From contig SVFS01000006.1 of NCBI GenBank assembly GCA_015056725.1, positions 1-64,000 of the forward strand: a stretch of DNA of 64,000 nt, read 5' to 3'. Source of the DNA: Lachnospiraceae bacterium (GTDB taxonomy: Bacteria > Bacillota > Clostridia > Lachnospirales > Lachnospiraceae). The notes below the pieces were generated by a model that did not search any database, was not told where the DNA came from, and worked only from the letters and a program-made list of their open reading frames with translations. Positions within the stretch are counted from its first letter, which is position 1; the number at the start of each line of letters is the position of its first letter. Shown here piece by piece: positions 10,095-49,070 of the stretch. The translations under genes were made by a program, and so were the position numbers.

Positions 10095-10895
10095 TTATAT
10101 AAATTCATTTACAAATTCATCAACACAGAAGCCATGTACCAAAAATCGTTGATTTCCACTACTTGCACCTGCACAAGTTGATAATGTAACCATCGTGCTG
10201 TATTGCTGTGTTACCGTATTTCCCGCAAAAGCGGAACGTCTGTAGACTCTGTCTACATATGCATCATATTCCTCTTCTGTAGATACGAGTTCATAGCTAT
10301 CGCTCGTGTCTGTTGTCAGATAATAGGAAAAAATCTGATATTTCAGCACTTCTCCTGTAGGAAGATAAATGTAAAAGTACGGATTTTGTTCGCAAACACC
10401 CTCTTCTTTATAATAGCGTTTCAGTGCACCAAACATTGTGTTGTTTTTCATATTATGTCCGTACAGGAACGTATTAAAATCGTAAAAATCCGGTGTGTTT
10501 TCATAATCCATAAAAATCGCACCACTGGAATTTACCTGTTTTTCCACAGTATGATCCAGATAATAATCATTATCTACTGTCTGTACAATCGGATAAGATA
10601 TCCCTACTCCCTCTACATACAGCCAGCCGAGTACATCCGGATTCAATGTCTGTAATGCCTCAAAATCAATATTCAATTTTGGATATGGACTTTGTTCTGT
10701 TATCGCTACCGCATCGTCATTTTCTGCCAAAACAGTTTCCGGTGTTTCTTTCTGCACATAAGTTGCTTCCAGACTTTCATACTCTGCTTCCGCCTGATTA
10801 TATTGTCTGGTTTCCAAAAACAACTGGTACCCTGAAAAGACAAATACTGCCACAAGAACAATCAGTACAATTTTCTTTATCTTCTCTTTTGACAT
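10095..10895 (-). CDS. srtB: Class B sortase
   Basis: TFLYGHNMKNNTMFGALKRY and catalytic TLSTC; N-terminal TM. Confidence 0.9.
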   Translation of the reverse strand: MSKEKIKKIVLIVLVAVFVFSGYQLFLETRQYNQAEAEYESLEATYVQKETPETVLAENDDAVAITEQSPYPKLNIDFEALQTLNPDVLGWLYVEGVGISYPIVQTVDNDYYLDHTVEKQVNSSGAIFMDYENTPDFYDFNTFLYGHNMKNNTMFGALKRYYKEEGVCEQNPYFYIYLPTGEVLKYQIFSYYLTTDTSDSYELVSTEEEYDAYVDRVYRRSAFAGNTVTQQYSTMVTLSTCAGASSGNQRFLVHGFCVDEFVNEFI

Positions 10896-11398
10896 TAATT
10901 TTTACCGCAGCACTTTTTATACTTTTTACCACTTCCGCATGGACATGGATCATTTGGATACACTTTTTCTTCTTTAACAACTGTTGTCGAAGATTTCTGT
11001 TCTTTATATAAAGCTTTTCTTGTTTCTTCATCAAAGATAGCTTCCCATTCTTCTAATTCATATAACCAGTCAGCACCTGCTGCCACCATATTTTTATAAA
11101 GAAGTTCTTTGTCAAAACCAAGATTAACAACAGTATCTTCTTCCATTTCTTCAATAGGATTTGCTTCTTTTAAGCTATCATTGATACCATCCAGAAAACC
11201 TGTCATTGTCAAAATCGTAACACCAAACTTGTCCGCAAGTTCTTTTACGGTACCTGTCACTACTTCATCCGGTTTCTGTAAAAGTTCTGCATAAATATTT
11301 TTTTCATCATCAAAATATTTCTGCCACATTCTCTGTAAATCGCCTTTGTTTGTTGTTTCAGAATATGCAGCGTCTCTCCACTGTTTTAATAAAGCCAT
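10895..11398 (-). CDS. SEC-C metal-binding domain protein
   Basis: C-terminal [24 protein letters not shown] overlap with srtB. Confidence 0.88.
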
Positions 11399-11474
11399 AA
11401 TCATTACCACCTTTACTTTTAATTCTTATTCAGATTAGTATTCAGTATATATCATAAACCACCTTTTTCGCAAT

Positions 11475-11508
11475 ACAAAAAGCACTCCTGTTAGGAAGTG
11501 CTTTTTGT
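11475..11508 (-). terminator. Rho-independent terminator after CAP-domain gene
   Basis: ACAAAAAGCACT...AGTGCTTTTTGT perfect 12-bp inverted repeat. Confidence 0.8.
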
Positions 11509-11551
11509 AAAGTTTCAGCCACGCTCTATGTACACTAAAATCTAGTAGGTT

Positions 11552-12115
11552 TTAGTAACCAAATTCCTGTGCCCAGTACCATTTTCCATCGTCTGCTTTA
11601 TATACAGCAATGCCTAATGTTTTGAAGCCAGGTTCCATGATGTTAGCTTTGTGTGTAGGAGAAGCCATCCATGCTTTTACAGCTGCATCTGCAGAAGAAT
11701 AACCTTTTGCAAGATTTTCGCCATACATAAGATTGCTGTTAACTGTCCACCAATCGCTTCCATCCGGTCTGGTATGAGAAAACGTTCCTACGATTTCCTG
11801 TGCTCTTACACCTGCTGCCATTGCAAGTCCATCTGACCACGCAAGTGCCGAAAGTCCTGCTGCTGCTCTTTCCTTATTAGATAATGCAAGTGCTTCCTGT
11901 GCTGCCTGCTGTAATGCCGGGTCCTGTAAAGACAACGAACCAGCAAGTGCAATTGCTTCATCATCAATATAAATGATATCGTCATCTTCTTCGGATACTA
12001 CCCTTGCAACTGCATCGCCTGTGATTTCGCCTTTTGCTTTTCCACAAGCTACACAACTGAGCATAGTAACTGCCACGAGCGATAAGCAAAGAATTTTCTG
12101 AATTCTGCTCCTCAT
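11552..12115 (-). CDS. CAP/SCP-domain lipoprotein
   Basis: Lipobox LSCVACGKA; NKERAAAGLSALAWSDGLAMAAGVRAQEI...FSHTRPDGSDWW...GENLAKGYSSADAAVKAWMASPTHKANIM. Confidence 0.92.
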   Translation of the reverse strand: MRSRIQKILCLSLVAVTMLSCVACGKAKGEITGDAVARVVSEEDDDIIYIDDEAIALAGSLSLQDPALQQAAQEALALSNKERAAAGLSALAWSDGLAMAAGVRAQEIVGTFSHTRPDGSDWWTVNSNLMYGENLAKGYSSADAAVKAWMASPTHKANIMEPGFKTLGIAVYKADDGKWYWAQEFGY

Positions 12116-12257: not shown

Positions 12258-12338
12258 ATTCGGCAACTGGCTATCCACCTATTTGGTTAGGACCCTTTAG
12301 CTTTGCGTCACTGCCTTCCGACAGCTTTGCCCATTACT
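12258..12338 (-). ncRNA. Cyclic di-GMP-I (GEMM-I) riboswitch aptamer
   Basis: Minus strand: GGGCAAAGCTGTCGGAAGGCAGTGACGCAAAGCTAAAGGGTCCTAACCAAATAGGTGGATAGCCAGTTGCC; GGGCAAA, GACGCAAAGC and GGT-GGATAGCCAG-TTGCC are GEMM-I signatures. Confidence 0.93.
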
Positions 12339-12455
12339 ACTTAGTTATAATTATAGTACAATATGTAAGAAAGAAATACAAGTACTTCACGTAATTTTCT
12401 TTCATTTTTTTACATTTTATGATATGTTAATATAACACTATTTCAGGAGGTCATC

Positions 12456-42489: not shown

Positions 42490-44775
42490 TTAATTCTCTC
42501 TGTCTTCCTTCGTCACACTACCTTCTGCTGCATACTTTCCAAGTATCGCCTCGAACTCTTCTACCGAACACGGTTTTTCATAAAAGTATCCCTGAATAAT
42601 ATCACAGCCAATCTTTGAAAGAAATTCTGCCTGCTCCAACGTTTCTACACCTTCCGCAATAATCGGCATCTTGAGCTTTTGTGCCATAGATACAACCATT
42701 TGCAGAATATCCGCACCACGCTTATAAATATCCTTTCCGGACATAAACGCCATATCCATCTTGATTACATCAACCGGTGTATTCTTTAACGTATTCAAAG
42801 AGGAATAACCGCTTCCGAAATCATCCATTTCAATTATAAATCCTGCTCTTTGCAGTTTTTCTACCGTTTCTATCTGTTTTACTTCGTCAATTGCAAATGC
42901 ACTTTCTGTAATTTCCAGTTTCAAATTCTTTTCCGAAATCTGATATTCTGCAATTAATCCTGTAAACACCTCATATAAATCTTCATAATAAAAATCTTTT
43001 GTAGAAATATTAACAGAAATAGATAAATGCTCCTTGCCCTCATCCTTCCATTTACGAAGCTGTCTGCATGCCAGTCTCCATACATGCTTGTCCAGCATGG
43101 AAATCATACCCCTGCTTTCCAAAAGCGGAATAAATTCTCCCGGTGCAAGCAAACCTTTTGTAGGATGCTGCCAACGCACTAACGCTTCTGTTCCTACGAT
43201 TTCCTGTGTCCGGTGATTTACCTGCGGCTGCAAATAGATTACAAACTGATCCTCATCAAATGCATTCTGGATATCATCCAGAATTTCCTGATCTTTCCGG
43301 CGTTTAATCTCCATTGCCTCATCATAAAAACTCACTACGCTTTGATACGTTTCTCTAATTTCTCCAAGTGCAATCATCGCTCTGTCACACATCATGGATA
43401 CCGGCATAAAATGATCCTTTACTTCATAGATACCAAGATGTACAACAATATGAAGACGCATATTAACCTTGTACTGCGCACTTCCTATAAAAACTTTCGC
43501 ATCAAAATCTTCTTTCGGCATACAAACAGCAAAGCTGTCTCCGCCGACACGTCCGTAAACCGTATTCTCGCCACCAAGCTTCTTTAAGTTATCTGCCATC
43601 AGTTTCAGGAAGGTGTTACCTACTTCTTCCCCGAAGATTTCATTAATACGCTTAAACTGTTTAATGTCCGAACAGATAATATAATATGGCTTATCCGGAT
43701 TTTTCTGTAACACAACTGCCGAACGTTCAAAAAACGTATTCCGGTTAAACACATTGGTCAGCTGATCACGCGTTGCCAGAAGATGCTGCTTTTTGCGCAT
43801 TTCACGCTCATAGGTCATATCATGGAAAATGTAAAAGCAACCGCTGTATCTGCCTTTTTCATCATCCAGCACGATATACTCAATATTGTAATGTCTCTTT
43901 TTTCCATCAACAACAATACTGCCATTATTCTGTATTACATTGCTGAAGTATTCATTCTTTTTAAACTCTTCTAATGTATTTAATTCTGTTCCAAACCATT
44001 CTTCTGCTTTGGCATTTTGGAAAATACAGGTATTGATATCATCAAATAAAACAACACCGTCTGTCATCTGGTTCAGCAAAATAGACTGTACATTTGACCG
44101 GAGTTTTTTAGGAATATAGTAAATACTGCAATATGTAATTACGATTGCTATGATAGCAAAAGAAATCGTCGTCTTATCAAACCAGCTTCTGTAAAAAGCA
44201 GAAGAAGCATTGATTAATACTGCTACTCCTATTGCCGATAATATCATGATGTATTTGGAACGAAATACCGCGGACGATTTTATCAGTCCTACAATCAGTA
44301 TTCCTATCGATATGACAACCAACGCATAACAAATCAGCAAATGGATAACGAAACCTGTGCGGATTTCATAGATATAAAAAGCATTTCCATCGTAATCCGA
44401 AGGATTAAAAACTGCTACATGGTGCCATACCATATTCAATAAGATAGATAGGGAATCCAGCATACATAATGCTTTAAACACTTTCCCCATTTTTTCATTC
44501 TTTTTCTCATACCTCGCAAGTGCATAGGTATAATCCACAAGCGTATAGCATGCCCAGTCCAGACTTATCCAATAAACAGAATATCCAAACACTGCCACAT
44601 AATAGTCATCTGCCATAAGCACAAGCATTGCACCTGTTGTTGCATACACTGCGGATACAAGCACTTTCCATAAGTGTTTCTTGGAGCCACTCATATCCTT
44701 TTTGGTCATATTTGCACATATAATGAGAATTGCTATAACTACAATATGAAGGATTATGAACAAGATTTTCTGCAT
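42490..44775 (-). CDS. 7TM-PAS-GGDEF(degenerate)-EAL c-di-GMP phosphodiesterase
   Basis: Degenerate active site GRVGGDSFAVC; intact EAL GTEALVRW...LKLEITESAF...DDFGSGYSSLNTLKNTPVDVIKMD. Confidence 0.92.
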   Translation of the reverse strand: MQKILFIILHIVVIAILIICANMTKKDMSGSKKHLWKVLVSAVYATTGAMLVLMADDYYVAVFGYSVYWISLDWACYTLVDYTYALARYEKKNEKMGKVFKALCMLDSLSILLNMVWHHVAVFNPSDYDGNAFYIYEIRTGFVIHLLICYALVVISIGILIVGLIKSSAVFRSKYIMILSAIGVAVLINASSAFYRSWFDKTTISFAIIAIVITYCSIYYIPKKLRSNVQSILLNQMTDGVVLFDDINTCIFQNAKAEEWFGTELNTLEEFKKNEYFSNVIQNNGSIVVDGKKRHYNIEYIVLDDEKGRYSGCFYIFHDMTYEREMRKKQHLLATRDQLTNVFNRNTFFERSAVVLQKNPDKPYYIICSDIKQFKRINEIFGEEVGNTFLKLMADNLKKLGGENTVYGRVGGDSFAVCMPKEDFDAKVFIGSAQYKVNMRLHIVVHLGIYEVKDHFMPVSMMCDRAMIALGEIRETYQSVVSFYDEAMEIKRRKDQEILDDIQNAFDEDQFVIYLQPQVNHRTQEIVGTEALVRWQHPTKGLLAPGEFIPLLESRGMISMLDKHVWRLACRQLRKWKDEGKEHLSISVNISTKDFYYEDLYEVFTGLIAEYQISEKNLKLEITESAFAIDEVKQIETVEKLQRAGFIIEMDDFGSGYSSLNTLKNTPVDVIKMDMAFMSGKDIYKRGADILQMVVSMAQKLKMPIIAEGVETLEQAEFLSKIGCDIIQGYFYEKPCSVEEFEAILGKYAAEGSVTKEDREN

Positions 44776-44940
44776 ATATTAACCACCTTTTTAAAAAAGA
44801 AAAATTGCGAATATAAAAATATTATATATTATAGCATACTTTCCCTTAATATAGGCACTTTTTTGTTGTTTTTCATTTGAGAAAATGACAAATTATGCTA
44901 TAATTTCTCTAGTCCTGTTTTTTGTCGTGGAGAAAGCATT

Positions 44941-46119
44941 ATGAAATATATAAATAACAAAGTGATTACAACATATGTTATCTTTTTTATCATATTAGGA
45001 ATCGGTTATGTCATTCTAAATTATCAGATATGGAGTCCTTCGCAGCATCCGATTACTTATAACATAAACAGCGATGCCCAAACCGAGAATGATATGTTAT
45101 CTATCCATATGGAAGCCTCCAAATCCTGGAATGATACCTATGATACCGGCGAAGCCTGTGTAGGTGCCCAATATGACGGTCTCATTACCAACAATTCCGA
45201 CAAAAGCTTTTATAATTGGACATTAGATATTCAATTACCGGAAGATGCCAAAATTGACAGCTCCTGGAATGGTACATATGTAAATAAGCATTCCCATATT
45301 ACGATGTCACCTATTGATGATATCCTGACTATTGAACCCGGAGAAACCGCTTCCTTTGGTTTTGTTCTCCACTCCGATTCGTTACTGACTATACAGGAAT
45401 TTACAATTATTGGTTATCAGTATATTCCGCTTACACAATATCCTCTCTTTTGGATTTTGATTATCGCAACTGCTTTTTGGTGCATCGCCATTATATGTTC
45501 TCTTTCTTTTGGTATCAGAATTTATCGTCTCCAAAAGCAGCGTCAAAATGACGAAGCCATTATTTTACAGTCTATGCAGACATTTGCTAATCTGATTGAT
45601 GCAAAAGACCCCTATACAAGAGGTCATTCCACAAGGGTTGCCGCATACACAAGACTTCTTTGTAAAGAAATGAAGCTGGATTCCCAGACTACAAAGCAGT
45701 TTGGCTATATCGCACTAATGCACGACTGTGGCAAAATCGGAATTCCCGATGAGATTCTGAGCAAACCGGGTTCTCTTCTGGAAGAGGAGCGCAACATTAT
45801 TAAATCGCATACAATAATCGGCGGAAACGTTCTTTCTGATTTCAATGCCATTGACGGAATTTCGGAGGGTGCCATGTACCATCATGAACGCTACGACGGA
45901 AAAGGCTATCCTGCCGGTTTAAAAGGTGACGAAATCCCTTTATGTGCCCGTATCATCTGCGTAGCGGATTCCTACGATGCCATGAACTCGGACCGTGTTT
46001 ACCGAAGCCGTTTGAGCAAATCGGATATTTTGAAAGAACTGCGCCTTAACAGTGGTACACAGTTTGATCCGCAAATCGTAGCTCATATGGTATTTCTAAT
46101 TGAAATTGGAAAAGTATAA
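44941..46119 (+). CDS. Membrane HD-GYP domain protein with extracytoplasmic CBM2-like domain
   Basis: Two TMs; HD...LMHDCGKIGIPDEIL; HHERYDGKGYPAGLKG; N-terminal ITNNSDKSFYNWTLDIQLPEDAKIDSSWNGTYV...LTIEPGETASFGFVL. Confidence 0.88.
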   Translation: MKYINNKVITTYVIFFIILGIGYVILNYQIWSPSQHPITYNINSDAQTENDMLSIHMEASKSWNDTYDTGEACVGAQYDGLITNNSDKSFYNWTLDIQLPEDAKIDSSWNGTYVNKHSHITMSPIDDILTIEPGETASFGFVLHSDSLLTIQEFTIIGYQYIPLTQYPLFWILIIATAFWCIAIICSLSFGIRIYRLQKQRQNDEAIILQSMQTFANLIDAKDPYTRGHSTRVAAYTRLLCKEMKLDSQTTKQFGYIALMHDCGKIGIPDEILSKPGSLLEEERNIIKSHTIIGGNVLSDFNAIDGISEGAMYHHERYDGKGYPAGLKGDEIPLCARIICVADSYDAMNSDRVYRSRLSKSDILKELRLNSGTQFDPQIVAHMVFLIEIGKV

Positions 46120-46152
46120 GTAAAGCCCTCACACGCATGTGAGGGCTTTACT
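46119..46152. terminator. Bidirectional rho-independent terminator
   Basis: AGTAAAGCCCTCACA-cgca-TGTGAGGGCTTTACT. Confidence 0.85.
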
Positions 46153-46153
46153 T

Positions 46154-47288: not shown

Positions 47289-49070
47289 TTAAGTTCTATA
47301 CGGCAGACTGCGTTCTACACAAAGCGCACCCCAGCCTGCTCTTTCATTCGGATAATCCAATATGCCTCTAAGCTCCTTTGCACCACGACATAAATACGCT
47401 TTTACTTTTTCCCCATACAGATATGGATCATTCCCTCTTACAATTCCCCATTCCATCAAAAGTGCGGCTGCCGCTGTTACAAATGGTGCAGCAAAGCTGG
47501 TGCCCGATACTACCTGAAAGCCTCCGCGTCCGTCACGAACCAAAATATCTACTCCCGGTGCACATAAATCCGGCTTTTGTACCCTTGTCTTCCATAAACC
47601 ACTTTCCCTACTGACCGTTCCTTCCCTTCTCTCATTCTCCGAAAATAAAGCATAGCCTCTGCCCGAAAAATCCGCATACTCTTCATATACAATGTCATAT
47701 GCACCAACCGTAATTACTTTATTTGCTGTAGATGGAATTGTCAGAGTCGTATCACTTGTTGCCCTATAAAAATTCGTTCCACTTCCCAGCACAACAGCGG
47801 ATGGCATATACAAACTACAATATCCGTCTACTACATTGACCGGACTAATCAATAATTTCCATATCCCTGTTGAAATCTGTCCATTCCCTTGTATTTCATC
47901 GATTGCCTGAAACTCAAAATAATATTCCTGCAATTGTGAATAGGGTGTCGGTTCTCCGATATATAGTATCAATCGTGTATTTTCCAGTATTATCTCCTGT
48001 TTTCCCGGTTGTGAAAGCTGCAACTTTTCACGTTGTCCTGATGGTGATACAAGTGTCAGACTAATTTGGTCAATATAATTCTTCCAAAAGGATATATTTA
48101 TTGCCTCCTGGAACGGCACAATACTCCATTCTACTTGTGTCTCTTCATCACAAACTAATGCTATATGTCCTGCTGCTGCTCCTTCATTTCCGCTTCCTAC
48201 ACAAATCACAGTTTTATACACATCTGCCGCCGTATCCAGAAACGTTTCAAGTAAAGTAGTTCCGTCATGGGCTCCATAAGTATTTCCATAGCTGATATTG
48301 ATTACTAACGGCTTCTCCAGTTCACTTGCCTTCTGAAGCATCCATGTGATTGCTCTCATCAATTCTGTTGTTCTGGAAAATCCCTGCTCATTTCCGCTTC
48401 CCAATTTTACAATTAACAGTTCACTTTCATCAGCAGCGCCTTCTCCAACACATATATCCGCTATTGCCGTCCCATGACCAGAACGGTCAAACGTGATTTC
48501 CGTATCATTTACGATACTTTGGTTAATCTCCTCTCCTGAAAACTCTGTTCCTCCATAAAATCCCACCGGAGCTCTTCCTTCTTTCGTCTGATCCCACAGA
48601 TAAGCAATCTTTGTATTTCCATCCGGAGTAAGAAATGCCGCATCCTTATAATCAATTCCCGAATCCGGTATTCCTATCAACACACCTTTTCCTGTCAAAA
48701 ATGGTTCCCTCAATGTAACTTCTGCAACACAGGAACTCCTATTTGCCTGATCGATTGATACCGCCTCTTCATACAATGCTTTCGGCTTTTCTATATAATC
48801 AATTTCCGGCAAATCTGATATACTGTCCAAATATCTTCTGTTCACTGTCAGTATGGCATATCCGGGCAATAAAAACTCCGTTTGAAAGGAAGTCGCATAC
48901 TGCTTTTCTAACTGTTCCAGTTTTTCAGCCACATTCCCATGATACTTAACAATAATTTCCCACCGGTCACCTTCCATAACTCCTACATTCAGCTCTAACG
49001 ATTTTTGTCGTTCCTCTTCTGTTACCTGTAGTGCAAGGTTTAATAAATTCTCCCGTTTCTGTGATTCCAT
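47289..49070 (-). CDS. S8 family serine peptidase (CspB/subtilase-like)
   Basis: Asp GIPDSGIDYKD, His DRSGHGTAIADI, Ser VVSGTSFAAPFVTAAAALLMEWG. Confidence 0.9.
   Translation of the reverse strand: MESQKRENLLNLALQVTEEERQKSLELNVGVMEGDRWEIIVKYHGNVAEKLEQLEKQYATSFQTEFLLPGYAILTVNRRYLDSISDLPEIDYIEKPKALYEEAVSIDQANRSSCVAEVTLREPFLTGKGVLIGIPDSGIDYKDAAFLTPDGNTKIAYLWDQTKEGRAPVGFYGGTEFSGEEINQSIVNDTEITFDRSGHGTAIADICVGEGAADESELLIVKLGSGNEQGFSRTTELMRAITWMLQKASELEKPLVINISYGNTYGAHDGTTLLETFLDTAADVYKTVICVGSGNEGAAAGHIALVCDEETQVEWSIVPFQEAINISFWKNYIDQISLTLVSPSGQREKLQLSQPGKQEIILENTRLILYIGEPTPYSQLQEYYFEFQAIDEIQGNGQISTGIWKLLISPVNVVDGYCSLYMPSAVVLGSGTNFYRATSDTTLTIPSTANKVITVGAYDIVYEEYADFSGRGYALFSENERREGTVSRESGLWKTRVQKPDLCAPGVDILVRDGRGGFQVVSGTSFAAPFVTAAAALLMEWGIVRGNDPYLYGEKVKAYLCRGAKELRGILDYPNERAGWGALCVERSLPYRT

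Follow-up and report, generated by a model that had tools for sequence, protein, structure and literature searches.

A CBM2-fold outer domain joined to an HD-GYP domain in a putative glycan-sensing membrane protein of a Lachnospiraceae bacterium

The window analysed here, a 64,000-nucleotide stretch of Lachnospiraceae DNA (contig SVFS01000006.1), contains on its forward strand an open reading frame at 44941-46119 that, from its ATG start, encodes a 392-residue protein in which a first transmembrane helix (TM1), an outer domain of ~140 residues, a second transmembrane helix (TM2) and an HD-GYP domain follow in that order. Judged from its sequence and predicted model, the outer domain is indeed a CBM2-fold module, and the identity of the protein as a combination of CBM2 and HD-GYP lies far beyond chance. 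We consider it moderately probable that the protein is a one-component transmembrane receptor and c-di-GMP phosphodiesterase that carries a glycan-binding CBM2 domain outside the cell. The gene and the parts of its product are the following:

44941..46119, forward strand: CBM2-TM-HD-GYP receptor gene (open reading frame, Pfam, AlphaFold2 model)
44962..45018, forward strand: TM1, residues 8-26 (hydropathy; AlphaFold2 helix 2-34)
45022..45444, forward strand: predicted extracytoplasmic CBM2-fold domain, residues 28-168 (Pfam, ectodomain model, Foldseek)
45163-45411, forward strand: PF00553 match within the ectodomain, residues 75-157 (Pfam)
45442..45606, forward strand: predicted unbroken helix, residues 168-222, a signalling helix that carries TM2 (172-190) on into the HD-GYP domain (AlphaFold2, hydropathy)
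45580..46077, forward strand: HD-GYP domain, residues 214-379 (Pfam, PmGH alignment)

In terms of topology, the hydropathy profile peaks at residues 8-26 and 172-190. The N-terminus carries two Lys/Arg and no Asp/Glu, the ectodomain four Lys/Arg and 19 Asp/Glu, and the stretch after TM2 four Lys/Arg and two Asp/Glu; this acidic loop with basic residues on both of its inner sides is consistent with an ectodomain outside the cell. In the AlphaFold2 model of the full protein (nine sequences, mean pLDDT 86), the strands of the outer domain start ~10 residues after TM1. In relatives, a gap of 7-17 residues lies between the last strand and TM2, and in most sensors 31-48 residues separate TM1 from the first conserved tryptophan. 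A comparison of linker lengths with enzymes (p=0.01) was not relied on, as that set also contained cleavable signal peptides and five rows from kinases. The order of transmembrane helix, ~140-residue ectodomain, transmembrane helix and HD-GYP domain proposed in the initial annotation is thus borne out by hydropathy, charge pattern, Pfam and the AlphaFold2 model.

The assignment of the outer domain, which that annotation had called CBM2-like and proposed to compare with PF00553, comes from both sequence and fold. Pfam matches residues 75-157 of the full protein to PF00553 (CBM_2) with E=1.6e-10 and 41.7 bits, against a curated cut-off of 24, and the ectodomain alone with E=1.2e-11; a phmmer search of the PDB matches CBM2 chitin- and cellulose-binding domains. 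Foldseek finds the outer and inner halves of the full model independently, the outer half matching the CBM2 structures 6qfs and 3ndy (TM 0.78-0.82) and the inner half the HD-GYP structures 4mcw, 4r8z and 9rbz. When the ectodomain is folded alone (23 sequences), the CBM2 structures 3ndy and 6qfs are again the top matches (TM 0.76-0.82). The ectodomain shares its predicted fold with the C. fimi Cex CBM2a (1exg, 6qfs) and the C. cellulovorans EngD CBM2 (3ndy), with a TM of ~0.8 to 6qfs and 3ndy, at a sequence identity of 18-23% and with a longer loop after W63. None of the refuting outcomes that the initial annotation had set at the level of sequence or fold was observed.

The inner half matches PF13487 (HD_5) over residues 214-379 with E=2.7e-37 and contains both motifs, H261 D262 and HHERYDGKGYP at 314-324. 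Its fold and catalytic residues are common to PmGH (4mcw) and PA4781 (4r8z), the sensor domains of which differ. In an alignment with PmGH, the ligand list of which served as reference (PMC4159591), D223, H229, H261, D262, K265, H290, H314, H315, D343 and D346 are kept, amounting to 7/8 metal ligands plus the equivalents of PmGH D183, K225 and D308; the position of the E185 ligand is occupied by Tyr225. By this alignment, the catalytic set is complete for the described Y/F subfamily, in which the tyrosine replaces the E185 ligand, and the HD-GYP assignment of the initial annotation holds in motif, site and fold. In one relative (L002) the HD motif at ~residue 280 lacks its histidine (LMLDCGKIGI, with LD for HD), and this sensor may have no catalytic activity.

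The gene appears to form a unit of its own, adjacent to a second gene of c-di-GMP turnover:

44877..44904, forward strand: sigma-70-type promoter match, TTGAGA-16-TATAAT with an extended -10 (consensus only, 11/12)
46118..46153, forward strand: strong bidirectional terminator with a 16-pair stem, closing the single-gene unit
42490..44775, reverse strand: 7TM(HisKA_7TM)-PAS-GGDEF-EAL protein, the second c-di-GMP turnover protein (open reading frame and Pfam)

Promoter-type matches number 8 where shuffles give an expected 6.4, and the one bounding this unit upstream is well placed. The GGDEF-EAL gene diverges from the receptor gene, the two sharing an intergenic region of 165 bp. Beyond the terminator, the window encodes at 47289-49070 on the reverse strand a subtilase with a CspB prodomain, a germination-type protease. 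Among 78 neighbour proteins around relatives, no recurring partner was found (GGDEF in 4/78, sigma-70 regions in 3/78), and a conserved neighbourhood was rejected as a pointer to the ligand.

The architecture recurs. Within 397 Lachnospiraceae genomes, PF00553 matches 98 and a profile of the ectodomain 112, and by a reading of the loci at least 42 encode the CBM2-like HD-GYP architecture; in a class-wide sample the ectodomain profile matches 32/388 genomes, enzymes included. GH5 cellulases make up 66 of the 73 complete non-HD-GYP CBM2 proteins in the family. Named carriers of the sensor include rumen and gut Lachnospiraceae, Oscillospiraceae and metagenome-assembled genomes (MAGs) labelled Treponema or Spirochaetales, with binning taken as labelled; in the HD-GYP tree, two Treponema-labelled proteins group closely with each other, apart from the rest. 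The sensor domain is absent from 8/8 congeners searched, which argues that it is not part of core physiology. CBM2 enzymes are commoner in genomes with the sensor (18/42 versus 72/355; odds ratio 2.9, Fisher p=0.003), a statistic that covers the matches listed in hand-assembled lists and ignores ancestry.

The same ectodomain is found on complete hybrid histidine kinases with HisKA, HATPase and receiver domains, one recognized by Pfam (L168) and two by length and sequence (L170, L174), and this points to a role as an input module. Two proteins that resemble degenerate kinases (L164, L176) carry it as well. In all five, the CBM2-like ectodomain is long and carries an insert of the form IHQ...IPLxxGDxxIYYPS. 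No GGDEF partner was found among the proteins fetched by the ectodomain profile. In a second, long class of HD-GYP proteins, large inserts extend the ectodomain; L149, L155, L157 and most of L221-L249 form a distinct HD-GYP clade of ~34 rows (support 99) with ectodomains of ~200 residues, which PF00553 does not detect in the members tested and which keep the tryptophan pair. By their sequences, these are probably a CBM2-derived sensor family that has no Pfam model. In the HD-GYP tree, 41/110 branches are weak and left open; by parsimony, the compact class needs at least six changes (two forced by starred branches) and the long class eight (four forced). A single fusion origin is thus neither shown nor cleanly excluded.

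From a CBM2 fold with two conserved tryptophans, we infer every further step, namely glycan binding, the kind of ligand, signal transfer and enzyme activity. The CBM2 domain would bind a β-1,4-linked glycan, either a soluble oligosaccharide or a wall or matrix glycan near the membrane, which would lie across the two invariant tryptophans W63 and W109; on binding, TM2 would move together with the unbroken helix that leads to the HD-GYP domain, and this movement would change c-di-GMP hydrolysis in either direction. As a member of the Lachnospiraceae, the cell is Gram-positive, and the CBM2 domain, since it is held close to TM1 and TM2 at its two ends, would sit on the membrane, under the wall. 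Because the receptor, unlike RsgI, has no trans-wall linker, a soluble oligosaccharide or a wall or matrix glycan is favoured over a crystalline fibre as its ligand.

One of these two ligand classes can be read more narrowly, with the protein as a sensor for envelope glycan made by the cell itself, either peptidoglycan or exopolysaccharide as it emerges, that feeds back on the state of the matrix or wall. Peptidoglycan is a chitin-like β-1,4 GlcNAc-MurNAc polymer, and the chitin-binding CBM2-fold members 2rtt and 2cwr are among the best matches of the ectodomain in both sequence and structure. A membrane-proximal position would likewise suit wall or emerging glycan, as would a genome in which no plant-polymer enzymes of the CBM2/GH5 type were found. 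However, the patchy presence of the sensor, with its absence from the congeners, is unlike that of a wall-state sensor, and wall or matrix genes form no conserved neighbourhood with it, so that this narrower reading is a possible but doubtful one.

The following positions of the candidate binding face and of the fold core were compared among relatives:

45127..45129, forward strand: W63 codon, matched by way of cellulase CBM2s as intermediates to Trp17, a binding residue of C. fimi CBM2a (36/36 scorable compact sensors)
45217..45219, forward strand: W93 codon, core tryptophan of the CBM2 fold in NWTL (39/39 compact sensors)
45265..45267, forward strand: W109 codon, equivalent of binding Trp54 (39/39 sensors, 93/93 other CBM2s; PDB alignment)
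45319..45321, forward strand: D127 codon, where the third binding aromatic (Trp72) would be and is lost (alignments)

Trp17, Trp54 and Trp72 are the residues we take to be the binding tryptophans of C. fimi CBM2a. When a profile of 23 related ectodomains is aligned to that domain, W109 falls on Trp54 and Asp127 on the position of Trp72; the mapping of W63 to Trp17 is less direct and uses a tryptophan at the end of strand 1, reached through CBM2s of cellulases from the same family. The receptor thus shares the equivalents of W17 and W54 with the C. fimi and EngD domains and differs from both at the third. T66, at +3 of W63 and so at the 2a/2b determinant position near the first binding tryptophan, is neither Gly nor Arg. 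According to PMC2914790, Gly or Arg separates CBM2a from CBM2b, and conserved tryptophans are the main contact sites of CBM2 domains.

In a set of 39 distinct compact CBM2-HD-GYP proteins, tryptophan occupies the W63 position in all 36 scorable rows and the W109 position in all 39, a conservation to be read with the caveat that the rows were gathered with profiles that themselves contain these residues. The third aromatic site is Tyr in only 18/39 of these sensors, about half, whereas an aromatic residue (Tyr, Trp or Phe) fills it in 83 of the 87 scorable members of a set of 93 other CBM2 domains, mostly from GH5 enzymes. This relaxation, together with the large inserts of the long-class ectodomains, would fit a CBM2 fold re-used for a role other than glycan binding, such as protein contact, dimer packing or a small ligand, in which the tryptophans are structural. 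Against such re-use, a similarly spaced pair of tryptophans persists in 44/44 HD-GYP relatives with long ectodomains, and the core tryptophan at the W93 position is often Phe in that class. That the binding-position pair outlasts the core tryptophan suggests selection on a binding face and is the best evidence here that argues for a ligand-binding role, and we regard a non-glycan role as unlikely. For the planar aromatic binding residues that the initial annotation had proposed to check, the sequence offers two conserved binding-type tryptophans (W63, W109) as candidates, with Asp127 at the third position of the three-aromatic face.

The annotation had gone further, to a receptor that couples contact with polysaccharide to second-messenger turnover, possibly for attachment to a substrate in the gut; read as a receptor for crystalline plant polysaccharide, its CBM2 domain would touch cellulose fibres outside the cell and report attachment. 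CBM2a domains do bind crystalline cellulose according to PMC2914790, and MAGs from rumen and herbivore gut are the source of many relatives; only this habitat suggests attachment in the gut. The geometry speaks against crystalline contact, since the short spans given above tie the domain to the membrane on either side, with no wall-spanning linker, whereas RsgI sensors have a trans-wall region (PMC12203970). The planar three-aromatic face is incomplete, and Treponema-labelled relatives, binning again as labelled, would lie under an outer membrane. No GH5 cellulase or other CBM2 protein was found in this genome (85.6% complete), and such enzymes therefore gave no clue to the ligand. Contact with crystalline polysaccharide is thus not sustained, and we consider a fibre-contact receptor very unlikely.

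For the receptor with an oligosaccharide or a membrane-near glycan as its ligand, the output would be c-di-GMP. The genome has two c-di-GMP-I riboswitches, 24 GGDEF matches, 4 PilZ matches and 14 matches to this HD-GYP protein, which support, at the level of sequence, the use of c-di-GMP by the organism. Both riboswitches keep, by eye, a G at the position that we take to mark aptamers for c-di-GMP rather than cGAMP. Among HD-GYP sequences in the PDB, the closest is that of V-cGAP3, an enzyme named as a phosphodiesterase of 3'3'-cGAMP, which leaves some doubt about the nucleotide; we infer that the protein should hydrolyse c-di-GMP. That the receptor has no control over c-di-GMP, its HD-GYP domain being inactive or acting on 3'3'-cGAMP instead, is hardly to be expected: V-cGAP3 and the tyrosine at the E185 position would allow it, but the near-complete metal site with the D183, K225 and D308 equivalents, the presumed c-di-GMP-type G of both riboswitches and the many GGDEF proteins speak against it.

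One of these riboswitches (64.5 bits; window 12259-12341, reverse strand) precedes a gene for a CAP-domain lipoprotein, which is followed by genes for a SEC-C motif protein and then a sortase (genes 10095-12115, reverse strand), together a probable c-di-GMP-controlled surface unit. The second (L292, G000:C110:5906-5981, reverse strand) lies just upstream of a gene for a membrane GGDEF protein, an arrangement through which c-di-GMP might feed back on its own production.

The receptor is reminiscent of the RsgI anti-sigma-I factors of Clostridium thermocellum, with CBM3, CBM42, PA14 or GH10 ectodomains and the best known among receptors of the CBM type, in that an outer carbohydrate-binding module steers inner signalling in clostridia (PMC12203970). 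RsgI, however, has one transmembrane helix, a periplasmic domain, a trans-wall region and CBM3 or CBM42 modules rather than CBM2, and its output is the release of a sigma factor by proteolysis, in contrast to the cyclic-dinucleotide turnover expected here. Only 7 residues precede TM1 of the receptor and its inner part is HD-GYP, leaving no SigI-binding N-terminal domain, and its structured domain begins where a trans-wall linker would lie. The likeness is in the idea of the input only, and the protein is not a member of the RsgI family. One-component c-di-GMP receptors with extracytoplasmic domains such as dCACHE or SBP_bac_3 likewise combine, in one membrane protein, a sensor outside and a c-di-GMP enzyme in the cytoplasm; in the passages searched of PMC8846402, the main review on inputs to c-di-GMP, their established ligands are small molecules, and there is no mention of a carbohydrate-binding module or polysaccharide as an input, although supplementary domain tables may list the pair. 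Lachnospiraceae GH5 cellulases (for example L049, L061, L062 and L073) have a homologous CBM2, often behind an N-terminal anchor or signal, but carry their catalytic GH5 domain outside, where the receptor has a second transmembrane helix and an HD-GYP domain inside instead.

In the open literature searched, we found no description of a protein joining CBM2 to HD-GYP and no publication that brings Lachnospiraceae together with c-di-GMP, HD-GYP and cellulose; the passages searched contained no link between CBM2 and a signalling protein. The parts are thus known, and automatic annotation would show both domains, while their combination is a recurrent architecture for which that literature yielded no description.

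Bacteria have many c-di-GMP enzymes, the inputs of most of which are unknown, above all in gut Firmicutes, and a CBM2 sensor offers a concrete class of ligand, β-1,4 glycans. With a confidence somewhat short of even, we propose a family of membrane-proximal CBM2 sensors in gut Lachnospiraceae, Oscillospiraceae and perhaps spirochaetes that would turn a β-glycan, from fibre products or the cell's own envelope, into a second-messenger level through HD-GYP or a phosphorelay through hybrid kinases, a cellulase accessory module having been recruited as a general input domain. If so, that module would have become the input for two different signalling outputs, and surrounding fibre or wall glycan would be coupled straight to the sessile/motile switch of a gut bacterium. 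The architecture suggests that a major switch of bacterial lifestyle may take its input directly from sugar polymers or their fragments.
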